Below, piece by piece: positions 3,155 to 15,125 of a stretch of 15,248 bases of DNA. Numbering within the stretch: the stretch's first letter is position 1; each line of letters starts with the position of its first letter. Below the pieces are notes generated by a model. That model saw only the letters and a list, made by a program, of their open reading frames with translations, was not told the origin of the DNA and ran no database searches. Location of the stretch: positions 1-15,248 of the forward strand of contig WFTN01000516.1 in assembly GCA_015485455.1 (NCBI GenBank). The letters are read 5' to 3'. The translations under genes and the position numbers were made by a program. This DNA is from Planctomycetota bacterium. GTDB taxonomy: Bacteria > Planctomycetota > GCA-002687715 > DRQF01.

Positions 3155-6025
3155 ATGAATGAGGAATCACAACACGAGAATCTGGTGCGCCAGACAGTCC
3201 GTCAGTTGAGAAATCTCTCTCTTAGAGCTGAAAGACGGGAGGTTTTGGACGTACTCCGCTTGGCAGACGAGGCGGCCTATTCTGAGGTTATGGAACTCAT
3301 GCGTTTGGACCCCACTCTTCAGTTGGGCTCAGCCCACTCCCATGCTGACAATCTGAGTGATTTGACCTTTGTTGGCGAAAAGGTAGAGGATGATGGGGGC
3401 GTCGGGGTCCTTCCTGCAGCGATGCCTCAGACTCAGGTGGGGGAGTTTCGCATCATCAGGCAGATTGGTACCGGTGGCATGGGGCTGGTCTATGAAGCAG
3501 AGCAAGAAAATCCGAATCGCCGGGTTGCCCTGAAAGTGATGCGTGCGGATTTGATGAGCGAGGGTCTCCGAGAGCGATTTCAGTTCGAGGCGGAGATCTT
3601 GGGGCGCTTAGATCATCCAAATATTGCCAGAATCTTCGCCAGTGGATGGCAGGAAACAGCCGTCGGTAAGCAGCCTTGGTTCGCTATGGAATTAGTCGCA
3701 GGTTTGAGCATTCTGGCCTATGTCCAGGAAGAGAATCTGAGCTTGGAAGAGAAGGTTGCCCTATTTTTGGGGGTGATTGAAGGGGTTCATGGGGCTCATC
3801 AAAGAGGCGTTATACATCGAGATTTGAAACCAGCGAATGTGATGGTCAATGACGAAGGCCGGGTAAAGGTCTTGGATTTCGGACTTGCCAAGCTGGCAGA
3901 TTCCACGATGGATGCCATGAAGACCCAGACCGGGCAATTGGTGGGCACTCTCAACTATATGAGCCCAGAGCAGGCCGGAGGGGATTCTGATGAACTCGAT
4001 GTTCGAACCGATGTCTACTCTCTCGGTTGTGTACTCTATGAACTTCTGAGTGGTGAAGTCCCGGTGGACACCCGGGGCCAAAACCTGACCAGGTCGATTG
4101 TCGAGATTCAAGAGAAGACTCCAGTTGAACTCGGTATCATCAACCCGGCATGTCGCGGCGATCTGGCACTCATTGTGAGCAAGGCCATCGCTAAGGACAA
4201 AGAAATGCGCTACGGATCGGCCGCCGCCTTGGGAGATGATCTCCGTCGATTCTTGGCCAATGAAGCGATCGTCGCTAGGCCTCCTTCCGCGTGGTATCAG
4301 CTCAGGAAACTGGGGCAAAGAAATCGCGTGGCGTTTCTTGCGGTTGCGGGCGTGTTAGTTGCGATCATTGTTGGGGGTGTCGTATCGTTGAAGTTTGCTG
4401 TGGAGGCGGAAGAACACGCCCGGATCGCCGAGAGCGAAAAACAGCGGGCGGAGATGGAGTCAAGGAAGCGACTCCGCTTGGCAGAAGAGGCGAGGCGAGA
4501 ATCAGAAAGAGCGGAGGCTGAGGCGAAGGCTCGACTTAAGGCAACAGAAAGATCGAATCGATACTCCCAATTCATCATCGAGACGTTTGCCAATATCGAT
4601 CCCAATATTGCCAGGGGAAAGGAGATTTCTCTGCGTCAGGCCATGCAGGAAGTGGAGGCAAAATTCGAAAAGAGTCTGGGCGATGATCCTGAGAGTCTAG
4701 CGCGCTTACATGGTTTTTTTGCCACTATGAGTGAAAGTCTTGGTGATCCAGAGGGGGCTCTTGATCACGCGAAGAAAGCGGCCGGCCTTCTGGAGCGTTT
4801 TCCCCAAGAGACAAGAATTCTTGCCCAAGTGGAGAAAATCTGGGCTTTGAGTTTGGCGAGGCTGGGGCATGTTGAAGAGGCGGAGTTTCATTTGAATCGG
4901 GTTGAAGAAATCCTGAAGGCTGATGGCCTGGAAGAGGGGACGATGGCAGCTACCCTCTTGGCGGACAAGGCGGAACTCTATGAGCGAATGGGGCGCTACA
5001 AAGACGGCCTTTCTCTTGCGGATAGAGCCCTTGCTCTCCGCTTGAAGATTTTCGGGCCCGATCATGAAGATGTCATCATGAGTCGATTTATCCGAGCGTC
5101 GATCTTAACGGCTATGGAGAACTTCGACTTGGCTAAGGAAGAGGCGACTCGTTGTCTTGAATATCGTGCAGCAAACTTGCCGAGGAATCATCCCTTGGTG
5201 GCCGAGGCGCACAATCTCATGGCCCGTATTGCGGTGGGGCGGGGAGAAATTCAGTCTTCGATTGAGCACACTCAAGCAGCCATTGCCATCCAGAAGATTG
5301 TCTTTCCTGAAGGTGGCAGACCACTCCGAGCGAATCTCATGAACTTGGGGTTTCTTTATATGCAAGAGGGGAAGCTCGAGCTCGCCAGGGAAACTTTGAA
5401 AGCGGCATTGCACGCTTACGAGACCTCTGATGGTCAACAAGATCCAGTGGGGTTTTCCGTCTGTTACATCACTCTCTCGGATATCTATGACCAGCAAGGG
5501 GAATTGGGATTGGCTTTGGATGCCATTTCTCAGGCGGTGGCCTTGCTTCAGTCTCACCCTGGAGTGGCCCCCATCAATTTGGCTCACGCGCTTAGTCGCA
5601 AAGGATCATACTTGTCCGCTAAGGAGTCGGAACCGCTCTACCGACAGGCTCGGGACTTGTTCAGGAAGTCGGAATCGAGGACATCGCCCAATGCCTTGAC
5701 AGCGTCTCGTCACCTCACGGCTGCTCTCATGAAGCAGGAGAAGTTCATAGAATGCCGCGACCTCTTAGAGGAGTTGCGAACTGAAATTGACAGTGCCAAG
5801 AACATCCCATTTCGGGAACGCATGGCAATTCATGTCAATCTTGGACTTACCTATGACAAACTGAAAATGTTTGCCAAGGCCGAAGAGTCTCTCCTCTATA
5901 TTTACCGGCTTTGCCAAGAAGCTGGCCCACCCGCAGCCAGATCTTTGGCCGCGGTGAAGAAGAACCTCTTCGATTTCTACAGACGCTTGGGCAAGAAAGA
6001 AAAAGCAGCCAATTTCAAACCCTGA
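3155..6025 (+). CDS. Membrane Ser/Thr protein kinase with coiled coil and TPR-like sensor region
   Basis: A 956-aa protein. After a roughly 95-residue N-terminal region comes a complete Hanks-type kinase domain (about 97-365): GTGGMGLVYEAE (105-116), VALK with Lys127, HRDLKPANVM (221-230), DFGLAKL (241-247), VGTLNYMSPEQA (263-274) and DVYSLGCVLYELL. The usual juxtamembrane PPSAWYQLRK signature is at about 376-385. A single transmembrane helix lies at about 393-414, followed by a strongly charged Ala/Glu/Arg coiled coil (about 416-468). The remaining 480 residues are helical repeats of TPR type (for example GRYKDGLSLADRALAL and LYMQEGKLELARETLKAAL), probably extracytoplasmic and binding a ligand or protein. 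The ATG is the only ATG after the in-frame stop at 3089-3091; the ribosome site is weak. It is convergent with the ferrochelatase-MFS gene. The family assignment is firm; the signal and target are unknown. Confidence 0.94.
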   Translation: MNEESQHENLVRQTVRQLRNLSLRAERREVLDVLRLADEAAYSEVMELMRLDPTLQLGSAHSHADNLSDLTFVGEKVEDDGGVGVLPAAMPQTQVGEFRIIRQIGTGGMGLVYEAEQENPNRRVALKVMRADLMSEGLRERFQFEAEILGRLDHPNIARIFASGWQETAVGKQPWFAMELVAGLSILAYVQEENLSLEEKVALFLGVIEGVHGAHQRGVIHRDLKPANVMVNDEGRVKVLDFGLAKLADSTMDAMKTQTGQLVGTLNYMSPEQAGGDSDELDVRTDVYSLGCVLYELLSGEVPVDTRGQNLTRSIVEIQEKTPVELGIINPACRGDLALIVSKAIAKDKEMRYGSAAALGDDLRRFLANEAIVARPPSAWYQLRKLGQRNRVAFLAVAGVLVAIIVGGVVSLKFAVEAEEHARIAESEKQRAEMESRKRLRLAEEARRESERAEAEAKARLKATERSNRYSQFIIETFANIDPNIARGKEISLRQAMQEVEAKFEKSLGDDPESLARLHGFFATMSESLGDPEGALDHAKKAAGLLERFPQETRILAQVEKIWALSLARLGHVEEAEFHLNRVEEILKADGLEEGTMAATLLADKAELYERMGRYKDGLSLADRALALRLKIFGPDHEDVIMSRFIRASILTAMENFDLAKEEATRCLEYRAANLPRNHPLVAEAHNLMARIAVGRGEIQSSIEHTQAAIAIQKIVFPEGGRPLRANLMNLGFLYMQEGKLELARETLKAALHAYETSDGQQDPVGFSVCYITLSDIYDQQGELGLALDAISQAVALLQSHPGVAPINLAHALSRKGSYLSAKESEPLYRQARDLFRKSESRTSPNALTASRHLTAALMKQEKFIECRDLLEELRTEIDSAKNIPFRERMAIHVNLGLTYDKLKMFAKAEESLLYIYRLCQEAGPPAARSLAAVKKNLFDFYRRLGKKEKAANFKP

Positions 6026-6085
6026 TCCGACGGCTTCATAAGGTTGCGGTTCCCAGTTAGCGAATTTTCTGGGCAAGATCACAGC

Positions 6086-8512
6086 TCATATCGTTTTTTC
6101 CCGTTGGGGCAAGGTGCGGATCATGAGGAAGGGAATGATGAGGATGACTGCGCCTACCACATAGGGGCTTGCATAGCTGAATCGCCAATAGAGGAGTCCC
6201 CCCAGGACAGGACCAACAGTTCGCCCCAAAGCACCGATAGAGCGATAGACACCGATGATCCGACCTTGCTCGTGTTCCGGAGCATAGAAGGAAACCAAGG
6301 ACGTGAGACAAGGGATGACCATGGCAGAACCGGTGGCCATGAGGCTAAGCCCGACATAGAGCAAAAAGACGCTTCCCAAGTTGCCGGCCATGGCAATCAA
6401 AATGAGCCCAGGGATGAGAATCTTGAGCCCCTTTTGGGTGACGACTGATTCACCGATCAATGCTGCCTTTCGTCTGACGTAACCTCCTTGTACCATCGAT
6501 AGGACGACACCAATGAACACGAAAAGCATGCCGTTTTCTGCCGCGCTGTAGTCCAGCTTTTCGAACGTCAAGAAGGTCAGCATGTTTTCGGCGGCACCAA
6601 AAGCCGAAAGGAAAATGAAATTGACCCAAACGACGGCAGATACCCCAGGATAGCTTTCCATGTGGAAGAGCTTGATGGGGTTGATGGTGCGATAGAGTTT
6701 ACCTTTGCCTCGTTTCTCGGGAGGAAGAGTCTCTGGGAATTTTCTCAGGACGAAAACAAAGTTCCAGACGCAAAGGAGAAAAGCGATCAGAGCCGGAGCA
6801 GAGAAGGGGTTGATACCCCAATCGGAGCCTCCACTGAGCCACTGGTGAAGAGGAATAAATGCGGCGCTAAGTCCGCCAATTGCCGGCCCCAAGATGAATC
6901 CGAGACCAAAGGCAATGCCAATGATGGCCATACCTTTGGAGCGAGTTTGCTCGGTGGTGGTATCAGAAACCGCTGCAGTGGCTGTTGTGATATTGCTGCC
7001 CATGAGACCGGAGAGCAAACGTGAAATGACGAGCAGCAAGAAGCTGCCAGAAAACACCCAAATCAAATAGGCCACAGCATTGCCGAGAATCGAGAAGAGC
7101 AAGATGGGGCGGCGACCGACGCGGTCGGACACAGCTCCAAAGACTGGAGCCATGGCGAATTGAAGAAAGGAGTAGAGGAAGACTAAGAGTCCGCCGAATA
7201 GGGCCATAGTGGCTTTTGGGTTGTCTGAACCTCCGGTGATGCCCCGAATTCCTTCCATGAGGGCACCGAACAGACCGGTCTCACCTTCTATGGCATTGTA
7301 GTAGTTGAGCATCTCTGGGAAGAGGGGAAACATGATGGAGAAACCGATGAGATCGATGAACAAAGTCAGGAACATCGTTTTCAGAACACTTCGGTCTTTG
7401 GGTGAAAGGGCTCCGTCAGGATACTTGTCTAACCCAAGGTAGGGGCATGTCTCGCATTGCTTGGGGGCGTGGCAACACCCCTGTTCGGGAACTTCAATGG
7501 GACAAGCACGGGGAATCGGGAGTTCTGGGGAAGTAGGTGTTGCTGAAGTAGACTCATCCTGAGGTAACATGACATCTTTGGCAAAGTCCTGTGCCCAATC
7601 CTCATCGTCATTGAGGCATCTCACCACATGGAACTCGCTCCCACCATGTCTCAAGAATATCTCTCTCAGGCCGATACCTACCTCTTCTTGGGTTTCTAAA
7701 TTGTCGACCACGAATGCTGGGCAAACCACGGTGATTTTCTTGACCCCATTTTGGGCCATCTGGATGATTGTCTCTTCCGTACTTGGTGCTAACCAAGGTT
7801 CCCGACCGAATCTTGACTGGAAGGTGAGGTGAGTGTGTTTCGGATTGTGCTTGGTTCCCTGTGCTAAGAGGGTGGCGGTTTCGACGCATTGATCGAAGTA
7901 GGGGTCGCCTCCTCGGATGCGGCGGATGGGATAGCCATGAAAAGAGAAGAGCAATTCTTCAGGAGGATCCGCTTCGAGGCTCTCGTTGATCTTCTGGACT
8001 GTGTTGTTGATATAGGCCGGACTCTTGTGGAAGTTCTCGACAAAGGTGATCTCCATTGGCCCTATTTCTCTCAGCGCCTTGTCGAGGGCATCTCTGCAAG
8101 AAAGTGTGGTGGCTTCGCAAAACTGAGGAAACATGGGAATCACCCGGACATGCTCGCAACCCCTGTCCTTTAGTTCTCTCAGTTGTGAGGTGACGGAAGG
8201 GGGGCTGAGAATGTAGGAGAAGGCTAGTTCTATTTGCGTTCCATCAATGTGGGTTTGAAGCTTCTCAACAAATGATTCCGTAAACTGAAACAGCGGAAAG
8301 GTGGAGCCAGTCCAAATGCTTCTGTAGGCCGCGGCCGATTTGGGGGAGCGAGAAGGGAGGATGAAGAGGTTCAGCACCAGTTTCCACACCAAATCTTGTT
8401 TGTCGACCACACGGGGGTCGCCAAGAAATTCTCGGAGGTATTCCTTCACATCGCTGACTTGGGGGCTTTTGGGAGAGCCCAATTGAATCAAGAGAATACC
8501 GAGTTTCTTCAT
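6086..8512 (-). CDS. Ferrochelatase - MFS transporter fusion protein
   Basis: One continuous 808-residue frame joins two full proteins. Residues 1-317 are a ferrochelatase (inserts Fe2+ into porphyrin, the last step of haem synthesis): ILLIQLGSP start, YLREFLGDPRVVD (25-37), SFHGYP with the catalytic-type His192, GGDPYFDQC (201-209), LTFQSRFGREPWL (229-241), PAFVVDNLETQEE (265-277) and the terminal CLNDD. The style is that of Gram-negative protoporphyrin ferrochelatases. A linker (about 318-372) carries five Cys (337, 346, 347, 353, 356). Residues 373-800 are a 12-span-type MFS protein of the DHA1/Tet class, with motif A as GAVSDRVGRRPILL (459-472). The gene follows the Rrf2 regulator on the same strand with an 81-bp gap; only a weak GAG precedes the ATG. 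Whether the transporter moves haem, porphyrin, iron or something unrelated is unknown. Both domain assignments are secure; the coupling of functions is inference. Confidence 0.93.
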   Translation of the reverse strand: MKKLGILLIQLGSPKSPQVSDVKEYLREFLGDPRVVDKQDLVWKLVLNLFILPSRSPKSAAAYRSIWTGSTFPLFQFTESFVEKLQTHIDGTQIELAFSYILSPPSVTSQLRELKDRGCEHVRVIPMFPQFCEATTLSCRDALDKALREIGPMEITFVENFHKSPAYINNTVQKINESLEADPPEELLFSFHGYPIRRIRGGDPYFDQCVETATLLAQGTKHNPKHTHLTFQSRFGREPWLAPSTEETIIQMAQNGVKKITVVCPAFVVDNLETQEEVGIGLREIFLRHGGSEFHVVRCLNDDEDWAQDFAKDVMLPQDESTSATPTSPELPIPRACPIEVPEQGCCHAPKQCETCPYLGLDKYPDGALSPKDRSVLKTMFLTLFIDLIGFSIMFPLFPEMLNYYNAIEGETGLFGALMEGIRGITGGSDNPKATMALFGGLLVFLYSFLQFAMAPVFGAVSDRVGRRPILLFSILGNAVAYLIWVFSGSFLLLVISRLLSGLMGSNITTATAAVSDTTTEQTRSKGMAIIGIAFGLGFILGPAIGGLSAAFIPLHQWLSGGSDWGINPFSAPALIAFLLCVWNFVFVLRKFPETLPPEKRGKGKLYRTINPIKLFHMESYPGVSAVVWVNFIFLSAFGAAENMLTFLTFEKLDYSAAENGMLFVFIGVVLSMVQGGYVRRKAALIGESVVTQKGLKILIPGLILIAMAGNLGSVFLLYVGLSLMATGSAMVIPCLTSLVSFYAPEHEQGRIIGVYRSIGALGRTVGPVLGGLLYWRFSYASPYVVGAVILIIPFLMIRTLPQREKTI

Positions 8513-8593: not shown

Positions 8594-9013
8594 TCACTTA
8601 GAATCACAGGACTTGTTGGTGAGTCCATCCAAGCGCGCATTTGTTAAATGGCCTTTTATCAACTCTTGAAGTTGAACGAAGACCTGTGTCACCGCACAAC
8701 CCCCACTGGCAGGACAATTGCCTTCGACTTGAGTCTCACAGACGTTCATGGCCAGAGGACCTTCGAGAGCTTCAAGAATTTGGAGGAGGTCAATTTCCTT
8801 GGCTGGACGTCCCAGAGAATAACCACGCTTGGCTCCTCGATGGGCTTGAACAATACCAAAGCGGGTCAGGGACTGAAGGATGTTTGATAAGTAGTTGGCT
8901 GGGGCCCCAATTCCTTCAGCGATATCCACCAGAACGACGGGGCAATGCTCACTTTGCTCCGCTAAGAAGACAGTGGCACGAATGGCGTATTCCGTGCCGC
9001 GATTGATCTGCAT
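8594..9013 (-). CDS. Rrf2-family Fe-S transcriptional regulator (NsrR/RirA/IscR-like)
   Basis: A 139-aa protein of typical Rrf2 length. The N-terminal winged helix starts MQINRGTEYAIRATVFLAEQ, and the recognition region contains APANYLSNILQSLTRFGIV. The wing RGAKRGYSLGRP and the dimer helix with IDLLQILEALEGPL follow. Three cysteines, C92, C100 and C106 (spacing C-x7-C-x5-C), match the Fe-S ligand region of the family. This spacing resembles RirA as I remember it, more than the C-x5-C-x5-C of IscR; the distinction is from memory. An Fe-S cluster here would let the protein sense NO, iron or redox state. AAGGA lies about 7 bases upstream of the ATG. It is divergent from the NO reductase-like gene and shares a 147-bp control region with it, and is followed by the ferrochelatase fusion. 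It probably represses at least the divergent gene and itself. Confidence 0.9.
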   Translation of the reverse strand: MQINRGTEYAIRATVFLAEQSEHCPVVLVDIAEGIGAPANYLSNILQSLTRFGIVQAHRGAKRGYSLGRPAKEIDLLQILEALEGPLAMNVCETQVEGNCPASGGCAVTQVFVQLQELIKGHLTNARLDGLTNKSCDSK

Positions 9014-9065: not shown

Positions 9066-9095
9066 TTGGCAAATCTCTGACTTTCAAGATATAGT
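9066..9095 (+). promoter_or_regulatory. Candidate sigma-70 type promoter of the NO reductase-like gene
   Basis: TTGGCA (9066-9071) and TATAGT (9090-9095) each match five of six consensus bases and are 18 bases apart. The predicted start near 9102 would give a leader of about 60 bases. The -10 box is overlapped by the repeated operator-like sequence, which suits repression. No equally good promoter was found for the opposite direction. Confidence 0.5.
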
Positions 9096-9121
9096 CACTC
9101 AACTCACTCACTTGAGTGACT
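9093..9121. promoter_or_regulatory. Probable regulator operator: three heptamers at 9-bp spacing
   Basis: The block contains a perfect 10-bp inverted repeat, AGTCACTCAA (9093-9102) and TTGAGTGACT (9112-9121), separated by 9 bases. It also holds a second, tighter dyad: TCACTCA (9104-9110) facing TGAGTGA (9113-9119) with a 2-base gap. Thus TCACTCA occurs at 9095 and 9104, and its complement at 9113, exactly 9 bp apart each time. It covers the putative -10 and start of the NO reductase-like gene and lies within the shared divergent region, so the adjacent Rrf2 protein is the natural candidate to bind it. Confidence 0.7.
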
Positions 9122-9160: not shown

Positions 9161-11548
9161 ATGAACCTCATGTCGTGGATAGACAAACGTCAGCAATGGT
9201 GGAAGGTCTTTGTCATCATCTTCACCATCAGCATCAGTGTCGTGGGATATATTGGTTATCAGACTTACGAATATGCTCCCCCTCTCGCTGATTTCCGCTC
9301 CGACACCGGTGAGCTTGTTTTTTCTGGCAAAGCCATCACGGATGGTCAACAAATCTTTCTGCGTTATGGGCTTATGGACTATGGAACTTTCTTAGGCGAC
9401 GGAGCACTTCGGGGCCCAGATTTCACGGCGGAGGCTCTTAATCGCGCAGCCAAGGCGATGAACAAGTTTCATGAGGCTGAGTGGTTGGAGAAGATGCCTG
9501 ACGAGGAGAATCGAAAGGTCATTGTTCAATCACTTGTGCAGGCTGAGATCAAAGAAAACCGCTACGACGAAGTCAGCAACACAGTGACTCTGACGAAGGC
9601 TCAGGTTGCGGCCTGGGAGGACTTGCTTCAATTTAATACTGAGAGGTTTGCCGAGGGCGGTCCTTTGGCGGGCAAGGAAGCCTTTAAGCCGGAAAACTAC
9701 ATCACTGACCCACAAGAAATCGCGGATCTCACGGCTTTCTTCTTTTGGGGTGGGTGGCTCTGCGGGGCGGAGCGGCCAGGCTTTGACTACAGCTATACCC
9801 AGAATTGGCCTTTTGATCCTCTTGCTGGCAACGCTCCCGCTGCGGGGGTGATGTTCTGGAGCGTGATTGGCGGGTTGGTATTGATTCTATCCATGGGGCT
9901 TGTGTTCTACTTGTACGGCAAGCTCGATCGGGAATCTGTTTTTGAAGCTCAAGAATCCAAGACGCCACCGATGACAACAATCGAGGACATCGATCGGGCG
10001 CGCCCGACGCAGACACAACGAGCATGCTACAAATTTATGGCCGTAGCTTCGCTCTTGTTCTTGGTGCAAATTCTCGCGGGACTCATGGCCATCTCAGATT
10101 TCGTCGGGCTCTTCGACAACATCGGTATTGATCTGACGGCCATTTTTCCTGTGACAGTGACCCGGGCATGGCATTCTCAAATTTCTGTTCTTTGGATTGC
10201 TGTTTGTTGGTTTGCTGCTTCTATTTGGGTGTTGCCCCTCATTTGCCGGCCTGAACCCAAGAATCAGTTGGCATGGATTAACGGCTTGTTTTGGATGCTT
10301 GTGATTGTGGCTTTGGGAACTGCCATTGGGATTCCCTTGGGTGTTCACGGCTTTTTCGGTGACATGTGGCGTTGGTTCGGGAATCAAGGCTGGGAGTTCA
10401 TGCAGTTGGGTAGAGTGTTTCAATACTTGCTCTACGCCGCTTTTGTCGTCTGGTTTGTCATTGTCTATCGCGGACTGTGGCCAGTGCTACGAAGACGAGA
10501 AAGTTGGTCTTTGCCGAATTGGATGATCTACTCCATTGCGGGTATCATCTTCATGTTTACTGCTGGCTTCGTGGCGAATACGGATACGAATTTTGTCATC
10601 GCCGATTTTTGGCGTTGGTGCACAATCCACATGTGGGTGGAAGCATTCTTTGAGCTATTTACCACCGTCCTTTTGGCTTACTTCCTCTACATCATGGGCT
10701 TCGTCAGTCACATGGTGGCGGCACGGGTCGTGTATCTCTCAGCGATCCTCTTCCTTGGTTCGGGTCTCATTGGTATTAGCCACAACTTCTACTGGAATGC
10801 GAAATCTGTTGAGACATTGGCCTTGGGTGGTGTGCTCTCGACCTTGCAAATTACTCCACTTGTGTTGTTGACTGTGGAAGCGTGGAAGTTCAGGCACATG
10901 CCTCAAAGTCGTATCGCGCAAATGAAGAAGAAGAGCGGCAAGGATGCGATCTTTGGGCTTGGGGACGCATTTCTTTTCTTGGTTGGTGTGAACTTCTGGA
11001 ATTTCATGGGTGCCGGTGTCCTTGGGTTCATGATCAATTTGCCAATCGTAAATTACTACCAACATGCTACCTACCTCACGGTCAATCATGGGCATGCAGC
11101 ACTCTTTGGTGTTTATGGCAACTTGGCGATTGCATCCATGTTGTTTTGTGGCAGATGGGTCATCAAGCCAGAGAAATGGAATGGACGTCTGGTGAGGCGC
11201 GCATTCTGGTGGCTCAATCTCGGTTTGGTTCTGATGCTTATTATGGACTTGTTCCCAGTTGGCGTTCATCAACTTTGGACTGTGATGGATGAAGGCTATG
11301 CTTTCGCCCGATCCCAAGATTACATTCATGGCGAGATGTTTCAGCGGTTCACATGGCTGAGAGGTTTTGGCGTGGCCGCCTTTACCTTTGGCGGAGTCTT
11401 GCCCTTGGTGTGGTTCATGGTGACACGGTGGTTCCATTTGAAACCAAGAAGCGAAATCGAAGTGGAACCCTTTGTGGTACCGCCCACTGTCTTGGCTGTT
11501 ATGCCTGGGACCAAAGGGGACAAGAATGGGGAGGAACCGGGAGTTTAG
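9161..11548 (+). CDS. nod: qNOR-family haem-copper-superfamily protein, probable nitric oxide dismutase
   Basis: A 795-aa membrane protein colinear with quinol-dependent NO reductases: TM1 at about 14-36, a periplasmic domain to about 215 without a haem-binding CxxCH, then about 13 further membrane helices. Haem ligands are present: H338 (RAWHSQ), H643 and H645 (NHGHAALFGVYG). FeB ligand H490 and E494 (HMWVE) are present, as is H541. The changes are specific. The quinol-site residues H, E and F of qNOR (H328, E332, F336 in Geobacillus numbering as I recall it) are S312, G316 and N320. The second His of the HH pair is N542 (SHNFYW). The glutamate 21 residues on is Q563. These are the substitutions I associate with NO dismutase (2 NO -> N2 + O2). 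The start has GGAG seven bases upstream. The gene stands alone, with no cytochrome c partner. If not a dismutase, it is a diverged NO reductase unable to use quinol in the usual way. Confidence 0.85.
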   Translation: MNLMSWIDKRQQWWKVFVIIFTISISVVGYIGYQTYEYAPPLADFRSDTGELVFSGKAITDGQQIFLRYGLMDYGTFLGDGALRGPDFTAEALNRAAKAMNKFHEAEWLEKMPDEENRKVIVQSLVQAEIKENRYDEVSNTVTLTKAQVAAWEDLLQFNTERFAEGGPLAGKEAFKPENYITDPQEIADLTAFFFWGGWLCGAERPGFDYSYTQNWPFDPLAGNAPAAGVMFWSVIGGLVLILSMGLVFYLYGKLDRESVFEAQESKTPPMTTIEDIDRARPTQTQRACYKFMAVASLLFLVQILAGLMAISDFVGLFDNIGIDLTAIFPVTVTRAWHSQISVLWIAVCWFAASIWVLPLICRPEPKNQLAWINGLFWMLVIVALGTAIGIPLGVHGFFGDMWRWFGNQGWEFMQLGRVFQYLLYAAFVVWFVIVYRGLWPVLRRRESWSLPNWMIYSIAGIIFMFTAGFVANTDTNFVIADFWRWCTIHMWVEAFFELFTTVLLAYFLYIMGFVSHMVAARVVYLSAILFLGSGLIGISHNFYWNAKSVETLALGGVLSTLQITPLVLLTVEAWKFRHMPQSRIAQMKKKSGKDAIFGLGDAFLFLVGVNFWNFMGAGVLGFMINLPIVNYYQHATYLTVNHGHAALFGVYGNLAIASMLFCGRWVIKPEKWNGRLVRRAFWWLNLGLVLMLIMDLFPVGVHQLWTVMDEGYAFARSQDYIHGEMFQRFTWLRGFGVAAFTFGGVLPLVWFMVTRWFHLKPRSEIEVEPFVVPPTVLAVMPGTKGDKNGEEPGV

Positions 11549-12444: not shown

Positions 12445-13764
12445 ATGTTTGATGAAACACGGAGGCGATTCGTTGCCGCTTTAGGAATGTTTGGGGTGGC
12501 CTCTGCGAGTTCCGGAAATCCTCTTTCAGGAGTATCCGGCTCAACCCAAGAAGAGCAGGAAGAAAAACGCAAGAAGAAACAGAAAATGAAGGGGATGAAG
12601 AGTGGCCAGGAACATGGCAAGTCCATGGACACCATGATGAATCCTCTCGAAGATCGTTTTCCGCGCAATGATCCAACAATTGCTCTTTCGAAGCCGCCCA
12701 AGCTTATGGGGCGTCAAATGGGCCGGATCGAGACTCCCGGGATTGAACCACTTGGATTCGAGATGGATGGTTCGGTGAAGGTATTTCATCTTATTGCACA
12801 ACCGGTGGAGAAAGTGATTTCGAGTGGGATGTCTATGTCTCAGGTCGATCAGCGGATGAACATCCCCAAGCCGTTTCAGCGTTTTCGCCCAAGACCAAGC
12901 CAACCGAAGAAAATGGTTTGCTGGGGTTACAACGGAACCACTTGCGGGCCAACTTTGGAGGCGACGGAAGGCGAGCGCGTTCGTATTGTGTTCAAGAACG
13001 AATTGCCAGAACCAACATCGATTCACTGGCACGGGTTTGAAATTCCATTCTCTGAAGATGGTGCCTCGGGATATTTCCCCTTTGAGGCCCGACGTCCGGT
13101 CTTGCCTGGGGAGACAGATGTCTATGAGTTTGACCTCATCCAATCGGGAACGCTCATGTATCACACTGGCTTCAATGTCATGAAGCAGGAGGGGATGGGA
13201 GTCTCTGGCATGTTCGTGATTCACCCGAAGAAGGAAGAGCAACCCCCTGACCATGATTTTGCCATCATGTTGCAGCAGTGGAGCTTTCGTCCAGGAAATC
13301 CGAATCCCGATGTTGTTCCCATGGAGCCGACCTTTGCCACTTTCAATGGTCTCACCGCACCTGATATCCCCATGCTGGAAGTTAAGCAAGGGGATCGGGT
13401 TCGCATTCGATTCGGAAACCTCAGCCTCCTGTATCACCCGATCCACATTCACGGTCACATTTTTGAAATCGTTGGGACCATTGGCGGTTCGATTCCAAGA
13501 GCAGCCCGAATGAGAGAAGCGACGGTCACCATTGGACCAGGAGAGACTCGGGATATCGAATTCGTCGCCTGGAATCCTGGGACCTGGAGAATGCACTGTC
13601 ATGTCTTGCATCATCTGATGAACCAGATGGCCGATCAACCTATGGGAATCGCTCCTCCCGAAGGCATGTTCACTCACATGAATGTGCGTCCCAAAGACCC
13701 TGGCTATGATCCAAAAGACCGAAAAGCCAACTGGAGCTATCCACCAAAGGAAGAGAGGATCTAA
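12445..13764 (+). CDS. Tat-exported multicopper oxidase
   Basis: A 439-aa protein with a twin-arginine type leader (TRRRFVAALGMFGVASAS at 5-22), so export folded to the periplasm is likely. A Lys/Glu/Met-rich segment follows (about 34-65). The first cupredoxin domain (about 155-262) has HWH (194-196) and YHTG (239-242). The second has HPIHIHGH (331-338) and HCHVLHHLMNQM (384-395), giving type 1 copper ligands H331, C385, H390 and M395. Of the eight His expected for the type 2/3 trinuclear cluster, seven are present; the second His of the HxH motif in the first domain is G242. The architecture resembles two-domain oxidases with type 1 copper in domain 2. GGAG lies five bases before the ATG. 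It is followed two bases later by a TolC-family gene, so oxidation of Cu(I) or another metal during detoxification is the likely role. The family is certain; activity with the missing His is not. Confidence 0.92.
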   Translation: MFDETRRRFVAALGMFGVASASSGNPLSGVSGSTQEEQEEKRKKKQKMKGMKSGQEHGKSMDTMMNPLEDRFPRNDPTIALSKPPKLMGRQMGRIETPGIEPLGFEMDGSVKVFHLIAQPVEKVISSGMSMSQVDQRMNIPKPFQRFRPRPSQPKKMVCWGYNGTTCGPTLEATEGERVRIVFKNELPEPTSIHWHGFEIPFSEDGASGYFPFEARRPVLPGETDVYEFDLIQSGTLMYHTGFNVMKQEGMGVSGMFVIHPKKEEQPPDHDFAIMLQQWSFRPGNPNPDVVPMEPTFATFNGLTAPDIPMLEVKQGDRVRIRFGNLSLLYHPIHIHGHIFEIVGTIGGSIPRAARMREATVTIGPGETRDIEFVAWNPGTWRMHCHVLHHLMNQMADQPMGIAPPEGMFTHMNVRPKDPGYDPKDRKANWSYPPKEERI

Positions 13765-13766
13765 CA

Positions 13767-15125
13767 GTGAAGAATCTCAGTTGTTTGATTTTGCTCGTCC
13801 TGTCCGGGTGCGTGGCCGTCGATCCCGCGCCATCATGGCGTCGTGTTCATGAGCTAAGCGAAGAGCGTATTGACGCCGACACTGTTTGGATTCGCTCGGA
13901 CGATGAAGCTCAATTGGTTGAGCAAACCGTTGAGGCGATGTTGAAGGATGGTCTGACCCGGGACGAGAGTCTACGAATAGCAGTCCTTAAGAACCTTCGA
14001 CTGCAAGCTCGCTTTAACGATCTCGGCGTGGCCACGGCGGCTGTTGTTGAAGCATCGTTACCAACGAACCCAACACTTGATGGTTGGTTAGGTCTTCCCG
14101 GGCGGTCCGGTGCGAGTTCTTTAGGGTTGGTCGCTTGGCTATCCGACCTTTGGATCATTCCTCAACGAAGCGCCGTTGCTGAACTCATGGCACAACGTAC
14201 AGAATACGTTGTCACGATTGACATCATGAACACGGCGATCCGTGGAGCCTCCTCGTGGGATCGTCTTGTGGCAGCGCAACAAGCATTAGGCATGACTCAG
14301 GAGCTGCTACAGGTGCGTCGAGATCATGCTCAACGGGTTGCCATACGTTTTGCTCATGGGCTTGATGATTCTGCTACCTTAGATGAGGCTAAAGCTATGG
14401 TGGCGGAAGAACAGGTTGCCTTGCAAAAGGCGAAGCAGGATCTGACCCAGGCCCGGACCAATATGTCGGCGATCCTGGCAACTCCTGAAGTTTGGCGACA
14501 TGTCCCTTCAAACGCCTCCCTCTCTCCAACTCCGTCTCCAAAAATGCAAGTGAGCGATTCGATCGAATTCGGCATGTCCAACAGGTTGGACTTGCTTGCT
14601 GGGCGGGTAGAGGTCGAGCAAGCGACGCGAGCCGTCGGTTTGGAAGATGCCCTTATCTGGCGATCTGTTTCTCTTGGTACTAACAAGGAAGGGCAATTCT
14701 CTCGGGTCTACGACTCGAATGTTGAGGCTGACGAGTCATTTGGGCCGACGATTTCTATTGAGATACCCATTTTCAATCAGAATCAGGCTGGGCGAGCTGC
14801 TGCATCATTCGAGCTTCAACGGGCAATCAAACTGCTTGATGCGGCTCGGGTGCGGGCAACAAAGGAAATTGTAGATTCTTTTCAGCGCTATGAAAACTCG
14901 AATGAGAGTTTGCGAAATCTGGAAGAAATTGCTCGACCTGCCATTGTGTCTCGGCTCAAGTACATGGAAGAGTGGAACCTGAAAATGCAGGTGCCATTTC
15001 TGGAGGTGCTCGCCGCCCGCGAAAAACTCATAGCTGTAGATATGGAAATCAATATGGTGCGCGAAGAAAGAAACAACAGTTGGCGGGAGCTTGAGTTCGC
15101 AACCAAGGGCGGTGAAAAGCGGTAG
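13767..15125 (+). CDS. TolC/CusC-like outer membrane efflux lipoprotein
   Basis: A 452-aa protein beginning with a lipoprotein signal peptide, MKNLSCLILLVLSGC, whose lipobox LSGC puts the lipidated Cys at residue 15. The body is two similar helical-hairpin halves typical of the outer membrane efflux (OEP) fold: ESLRIAVLKNLRLQARFNDL near the first repeat, long Ala/Gln/Glu helices in between, then SIEIPIFNQNQAGRAAASFE and a C-terminal helix (EKLIAVDMEINMVREERNN). The start codon is GTG, two bases after the oxidase stop, with GAGAGGA seven bases upstream, so the two genes are translationally coupled. Such proteins form the outer-membrane channel of tripartite efflux pumps. With a multicopper oxidase upstream, copper or silver efflux (Cus-like) is the best guess; the adaptor and pump genes would lie beyond the window. 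Confidence 0.88.
   Translation: MKNLSCLILLVLSGCVAVDPAPSWRRVHELSEERIDADTVWIRSDDEAQLVEQTVEAMLKDGLTRDESLRIAVLKNLRLQARFNDLGVATAAVVEASLPTNPTLDGWLGLPGRSGASSLGLVAWLSDLWIIPQRSAVAELMAQRTEYVVTIDIMNTAIRGASSWDRLVAAQQALGMTQELLQVRRDHAQRVAIRFAHGLDDSATLDEAKAMVAEEQVALQKAKQDLTQARTNMSAILATPEVWRHVPSNASLSPTPSPKMQVSDSIEFGMSNRLDLLAGRVEVEQATRAVGLEDALIWRSVSLGTNKEGQFSRVYDSNVEADESFGPTISIEIPIFNQNQAGRAAASFELQRAIKLLDAARVRATKEIVDSFQRYENSNESLRNLEEIARPAIVSRLKYMEEWNLKMQVPFLEVLAAREKLIAVDMEINMVREERNNSWRELEFATKGGEKR

Follow-up and report, generated by a model that had tools for sequence, protein, structure and literature searches.

Active-site residues and surroundings of the gene

The window, by which we mean the whole 15,248-nucleotide stretch of planctomycete DNA analysed here, carries on its forward strand a gene (9161–11548) for an NO reductase-fold protein of 795 residues that is of the N/Q type and is without a quinol site. 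The open reading frame matches Pfam PF22085 and PF00115 and holds no further Pfam domain. Its predicted fold resembles that of the quinol NO reductases (qNOR), and it aligns with the Geobacillus qNOR (PDB code: 3AYF) over residues 18–767 with 482 bits. The original prediction, aligned by eye, had given constant offsets of 16 and then 18 to the Geobacillus numbering, and the alignment to 3AYF returns both these offsets and the residues assigned from them. In the former quinol site, judged from the alignment (codons 312–320, 10094–10120, +; offset 16), S312, G316 and N320 replace H328, E332 and F336. The FeB pair is H541-N542 (10781–10786, +; offset 18), equivalent to H559 and H560 of 3AYF, with the third histidine changed to Asn, and Q563 (10847–10849, +; offset 18) replaces the catalytic glutamate E581. 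The FeB ligands H490 and E494 (10628–10642, +; H508 and E512 of 3AYF) are retained together with H541, and so are the haem ligands H338 (10172–10174, +), whose role is assigned by homology to qNOR, and H643 and H645 (11087–11095, +). A canonical qNOR is ruled out, since H328/E332/F336, the FeB HH pair and E581 are all missing. The haem c of a cNOR is missing as well: the protein has no CxxCH motif, and a scan of ten window ORFs gave no cytochrome c family.

A search in which the best 7999 candidates were scored gave 1624 hits at E values up to 0.001, and 120 of them are listed; one of these, P0002, is 99% identical and carries the label of the window itself. N542, Q563, H490, E494 and H541 are identical throughout the set formed by the window protein and these 120 of the 1624 hits (121/121), and a CxxCH motif occurs in 0/121. 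Addition of L003, L004 and L006 gives a window-clade set of 124 proteins. Among the matches listed, H338, H490 and E494 are each found in 124/124 and H643 and H645 in 123/124 each, with one gap; at the quinol-His position H never occurs and S (56), A (32) and G (25) prevail over a few other residues, column 316 has E in 0/124 and column 320 has F in 2/124, that is, variable quinol positions beside invariant ligands. Comparison with the same-genus genome G186 over 616 codons yields pN 0.10 and pS 0.78, with no pN/pS-type ratio given because dS is saturated, and indicates purifying selection on the gene. These values rule out a pseudogene. Together with the 121/121 constancy among the matches listed, they also exclude chance or decay as the source of the pattern, in agreement with the earlier view that the gene is not decaying.

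The putative NO dismutase (NOD) of Ettwig 2012 (PMC3413370) was described by the exchange of His for Asn and of Glu for Gln and by the missing quinol site, and the same paper infers that such proteins cannot accept external electrons. In the window protein H560 is likewise Asn, Glu is Gln and the quinol residues are gone; the remaining haem and FeB histidines are intact, and the cytochrome c-like domain is without haem c.

A divergent gene (8594–9013, −; PF02082, 99.5 bits) encodes an Rrf2-family regulator with three cysteines (C-x7-C-x5-C), a predicted NO/Fe-S sensor. Between it and the N/Q gene lies a perfect 10+10 bp palindrome, AGTCACTCAA-N9-TTGAGTGACT (9093–9121), a predicted operator. 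The Rrf2 gene beside the N/Q gene and the palindrome block are both kept in G186, although the spacer has changed over much of its length. When up to two mismatches are allowed, neither the host genome (G000) nor G186 contains a further copy of the palindrome. A reversed-pattern control gave one match per strand per genome at up to three mismatches, so palindrome sites with three mismatches are background. A three-cysteine Rrf2 gene is no more than 1 kb away from the N/Q gene at 12 of 80 named loci, all belonging to the NOD-core or the quinol-His-keeping group described below, and adjoins it in 2/6 window-clade genomes. Altogether 16 of 28 Rrf2 hits fall within 1 kb, against 14% of the flank, with a binomial p of 1.7e-7 that takes the hits to be independent even though closely related loci are among them. 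An earlier record of NsrR next to nod exists (PMC13386854). The Rrf2 protein of the window may be a sensor of NO.

Several other genes were recognised in the window. An 808-residue protein (6086–8512, −), adjoining the haem enzyme, joins a ferrochelatase (residues 1–315; hemH above the NCBIfam cut-off) through a cysteine-rich linker to an MFS transporter (380–763) and looks like an unusual fusion. A gene for a multicopper oxidase, which matches the NirK model weakly, stands immediately before one for an outer-membrane efflux protein (12445–15125, +), and the two look like a copper-handling pair. The remaining ORFs include a Ser/Thr kinase with TPRs (3155–6025, +), an ECF-type sigma factor (1836–2516, −) and an ORF that is kinase-like by eye (3–1835, −).

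Three groups of N/Q proteins

Relatives were taken from a named-genome scan, with 80 of 306 confirmed relatives retained, and from a phylum sample in which 37 of 199 genomes have any match and six are window-clade genomes. Among the references were Methylomirabilis (L051), HdN1 (L087), an ETNP alphaproteobacterium (L049), Cecembia (L107) and Algoriphagus (L094 and L111). Row L001, the same as P0001, and the partial rows L005, L013, L031 and L080 were dropped before the group counts, in which one gene, a NOD-core gene of genome G022 from the host's phylum, is counted twice (L012 and L037, 100% identical).

Asn and Gln occur together in 124/124 window-clade proteins (among the matches listed), in 62/62 proteins of the NOD core and in 23/23 proteins of a middle group, while HH and E are found in 18/18 canonical qNORs compared. 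At the thresholds applied, the columns marking the N/Q type are H80D, Y313D, L491M, H542N and E563Q. The quinol His is present in 23/23 of the middle group and absent from 124/124 window-clade proteins (among the matches listed) and 62/62 of the NOD core; this group of quinol-His keepers was drawn up with the residues already known, which makes 23/23 partly circular for H312, not for N/Q. The NODs of Methylomirabilis and HdN1 (DAMO_2434/2437, HdN1 NorZ) are like the window protein in H560N, E581Q, the retained haem ligands and the lost quinol His. With the fragment row L080 excluded, the NOD core shares 40–46% identity with the window protein, and differs both in the quinol-His column, which is mostly T, E, M or N in the core and mostly S, A or G in the window clade, and in a motif that reads HNFYWIA or WIG in 62/62 core proteins but HNFYWNA or WNG in 124/124 of the window clade (among the matches listed). 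The quinol-His keepers (Cecembia type), 45–52% identical to the window protein, share N, Q and the HNFYWNA motif in 23/23; unlike the window protein, they have H at the quinol site in 23/23 and F in 20/23. The canonical qNOR paralogue of the host genome (G000 C397) is 31% identical and has HEF, HH and E. The 'Unknown qNor-related' lineage of PMC7338807 and PMC10286720, compared by description, would fit in substance, with NOD-type substitutions and a place between NOD and qNOR; both papers regard the function of such in-between sequences as ambiguous.

The residue pattern had been taken as that of NOD. Its match to the residues of Ettwig 2012 stands, but the N/Q changes, being found in 23/23 quinol-His keepers too, are not markers of the Methylomirabilis/HdN1 clade, and with this active site shared by proteins that have the quinol His, N/Q alone need not mean dismutation. 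Fuchsman 2017 (PMC5723336) gave a similar warning, reporting the same active-site changes in other qnorB-like genes.

Separately, a Deltaproteobacterial MAG contig (L080, 8043–12135) carries an NOD-range gene (41% identical to the window protein) and then a second gene, 59% identical, that ends at the edge of the stretch; two N/Q types thus stand in tandem, with a window-clade-like gene beyond the PVC group. Genomes G120 and G151 have two N/Q-range homologues each (about 52% and 45% identity), which suggests paralogues of different groups within one planctomycete.

The window clade and the NOD core are each recovered at 100/100 in careful trees of 47, 47 and 63 rows and at 100 in a quick tree of 64 rows. 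They are united in none of the best trees and in 0/1000 bootstrap trees of the 63-row tree. The window clade is a Planctomycetota/Verrucomicrobiota lineage apart from the Methylomirabilis/HdN1 NODs, and the separate 100/100 clades of the three careful trees rule out membership of the window protein in the Methylomirabilis/HdN1 clade. The phylogeny proposed as a check on the original prediction thus agrees with it in placing the protein outside the canonical qNORs, and departs from it in placing the protein outside the NOD clade too.

The best trees require two changes of the quinol-His state. An AU test rejects one common clade of the window clade and the NOD core when all columns are used (p 0.006), and does not when the quinol-loop and signature columns are removed (p 0.098 and 0.053). 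With a single loss rejected in one of three AU tests, a double loss is favoured, not proven; the window clade would probably represent the second loss of the quinol site. The order of branching among the N/Q groups is weak: one careful 47-row tree places the planctomycete keepers with the window clade (82/98), which the other three trees do not, and a further union among the groups is not rejected (AU p 0.21). The remodelled iron site, common to the N/Q groups, is probably older than their split.

Nitrogen metabolism and electron donors

The host genome (77% complete) also carries a canonical qNOR. A canonical qNOR with the six diagnostic residues is present in 4/6 window-clade genomes, in which plain NO reduction is therefore already covered. 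The host genome has narG and narI above the NCBIfam cut-offs, a NarH-like subunit, and a cbb3-like oxidase with FixO above the Pfam cut-off and the CcoN model below the NCBIfam cut-off. ORFs for c-type cytochromes adjoin narG and two other oxidase-like genes.

Full-length NirS was not found in five window-clade genomes, where a partial match in G016 (75 positions, 26 bits) is above the cut-off and two in G158 are below it; the controls HdN1 and Methylomirabilis gave full-length matches. In these five genomes no NirK was found above the cut-off. Weak NirK matches occur in G000, G186 and G115, and the two in G000 are the multicopper oxidase of the window. For NosZ, the five genomes gave short C-terminal pieces only, with the HdN1 control at 445 bits (positions 7–578), below the model cut-off of 625; PF18764, used as another NosZ probe, had no match even in the controls and was discarded. 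NrfA was found in 1/6 window-clade genomes (G176). Since these genomes are 76–94% complete, the absence of nirS, nirK and nosZ is soft.

Two further loci were noticed. In G016, narG (L147, 1200–4808) and the window-clade gene share a contig, at a distance of about 5.6 kb. In the host genome, L131 (3131–5328) holds a haem-copper oxidase-like protein behind a two-domain cytochrome c, with COX1 at 55 bits, above the Pfam cut-off, and no NCBIfam oxidase model above its cut-off.

A Pfam scan of neighbours covered 20 chosen ORFs, 14 at window-clade loci, five at quinol-His-keeping loci and one at L080, for which no Pfam match was found. No recurring electron-donor neighbour was found among the 14 ORFs, which come from five further window-clade loci (L112, L113, L114, L116 and L121); they include Rrf2 (L114 only), kinases, DUF1501, a nitroreductase and a DAO oxidoreductase, and at L113 a protein with an HZS_alpha domain whose cytochrome match is weak and below the cut-off. 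At L117, whose organism belongs to the host's own family, a multihaem-cytochrome-like ORF (4495–6540, −) directly behind the quinol-His-keeping N/Q gene has weak MtrC-like and cytochrome c7 matches below the Pfam cut-offs, which hints that the quinol-His-keeping group may draw on some other electron source.

Possible functions of the protein

Judging from the sequence, we tentatively favor, at a little short of an even chance, an NO-induced and electron-independent consumer of NO that is most likely a dismutase. It would be a single-chain membrane protein with a modelled qNOR fold, haem and iron ligands intact, and a FeB site with His changed to Asn and Glu to Gln. As the quinol residues and the haem c motif are absent, NO would likely be consumed without outside electrons, and the likely reaction would be 2 NO → N2 + O2. 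NO is predicted to act through the divergent Rrf2 protein, which would free the palindrome at 9093–9121 and turn the gene on. NarG nitrate reductase can leak NO. With no nitrite reductase found in the host genome at 77% completeness, the NO may be supplied by neighbours or arise as a side product of NarG. Any O2 formed could feed the cbb3-like oxidase of the host. According to PMC13386854 (2026), no NOD has yet been isolated and characterised, so the reaction tied to the N/Q signature, O2 production by NOD-type proteins included, is putative.

The main rival to dismutation is an NO reductase that makes N2O and receives electrons by another route, from a soluble cytochrome c at the periplasmic domain or from a re-sited quinol. 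This is possible but somewhat doubtful. The qNOR fold, the haem ligands and the retained E494 agree with such an enzyme, and Fuchsman 2017 (PMC5723336) argued from N2O correlations that such qnorB-like genes make N2O. Donors exist in the host, where c-type cytochrome ORFs lie by narG and two oxidase-like genes, and a multihaem-like ORF stands behind the N/Q gene of L117, a quinol-His keeper. However, the enzyme's own haem c motif is missing in 121/121 proteins (among the matches listed), its quinol residues are unconstrained, the ten window ORFs scanned contain no cytochrome c family, and a normal qNOR coexists in 4/6 genomes. The glutamate implicated in catalysis (PMC3413370) is moreover Gln in 124/124 (among the matches listed). 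Altered as it is, the FeB site could also belong to a non-catalytic protein that binds or senses NO, which we regard as very improbable given that H338, H490, E494 and H541 are kept in 124/124 and H643 and H645 in 123/124, with one gap (among the matches listed), and that no further Pfam domain is attached.

Another electron-neutral disproportionation, 3 NO → N2O + NO2−, serving mainly NO detoxification, would dispense with electron entry just as dismutation does. Rrf2-type control beside N/Q genes fits detoxification, a role that PMC13386854 proposes where nod lies near such regulators. However, no enzyme of this family is known to run the reaction and the sequence holds nothing that separates it from dismutation; we consider it improbable.

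Extended to the whole lineage, the dismutase reading would give Planctomycetota and Verrucomicrobiota a quinol-free NO dismutase that arose independently of Methylomirabilis/HdN1 from an N/Q ancestor with a quinol site; under NO control, bacteria that make no NO themselves would turn the NO of others into N2 and O2 for their own cbb3-like oxidase. All of this together is unlikely to hold.

Source names on the window-clade hits (among the matches listed) include Planctomycetes, Verrucomicrobiota and a Candidatus Scalindua. Elbon 2024 (AEM e02099-23) reportedly describes a planctomycete nod. The expectation that an NOD-type gene in a planctomycete would be notable is right as to the host, and less so as to novelty: planctomycete nod is already in print, for Scalindua (PMC10359470) and for Planctomycetia (cited in PMC12285268). 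The NOD passages of PMC8099898 concern other phyla only. A check for the H-to-N change on HMM hits (PMC13386854) would, if used alone, admit at least two other lineages. The N/Q proteins form a natural series with one iron site, in which the Cecembia type has the quinol residues, the NC10/HdN1 type lacks them and the window clade, probably independently, lacks them too. Products compared along this series would tell which of the two changes, in the iron site or in electron entry, decides between N2O and O2, and the window clade could serve as a probably independent test of dark oxygen production by such enzymes.
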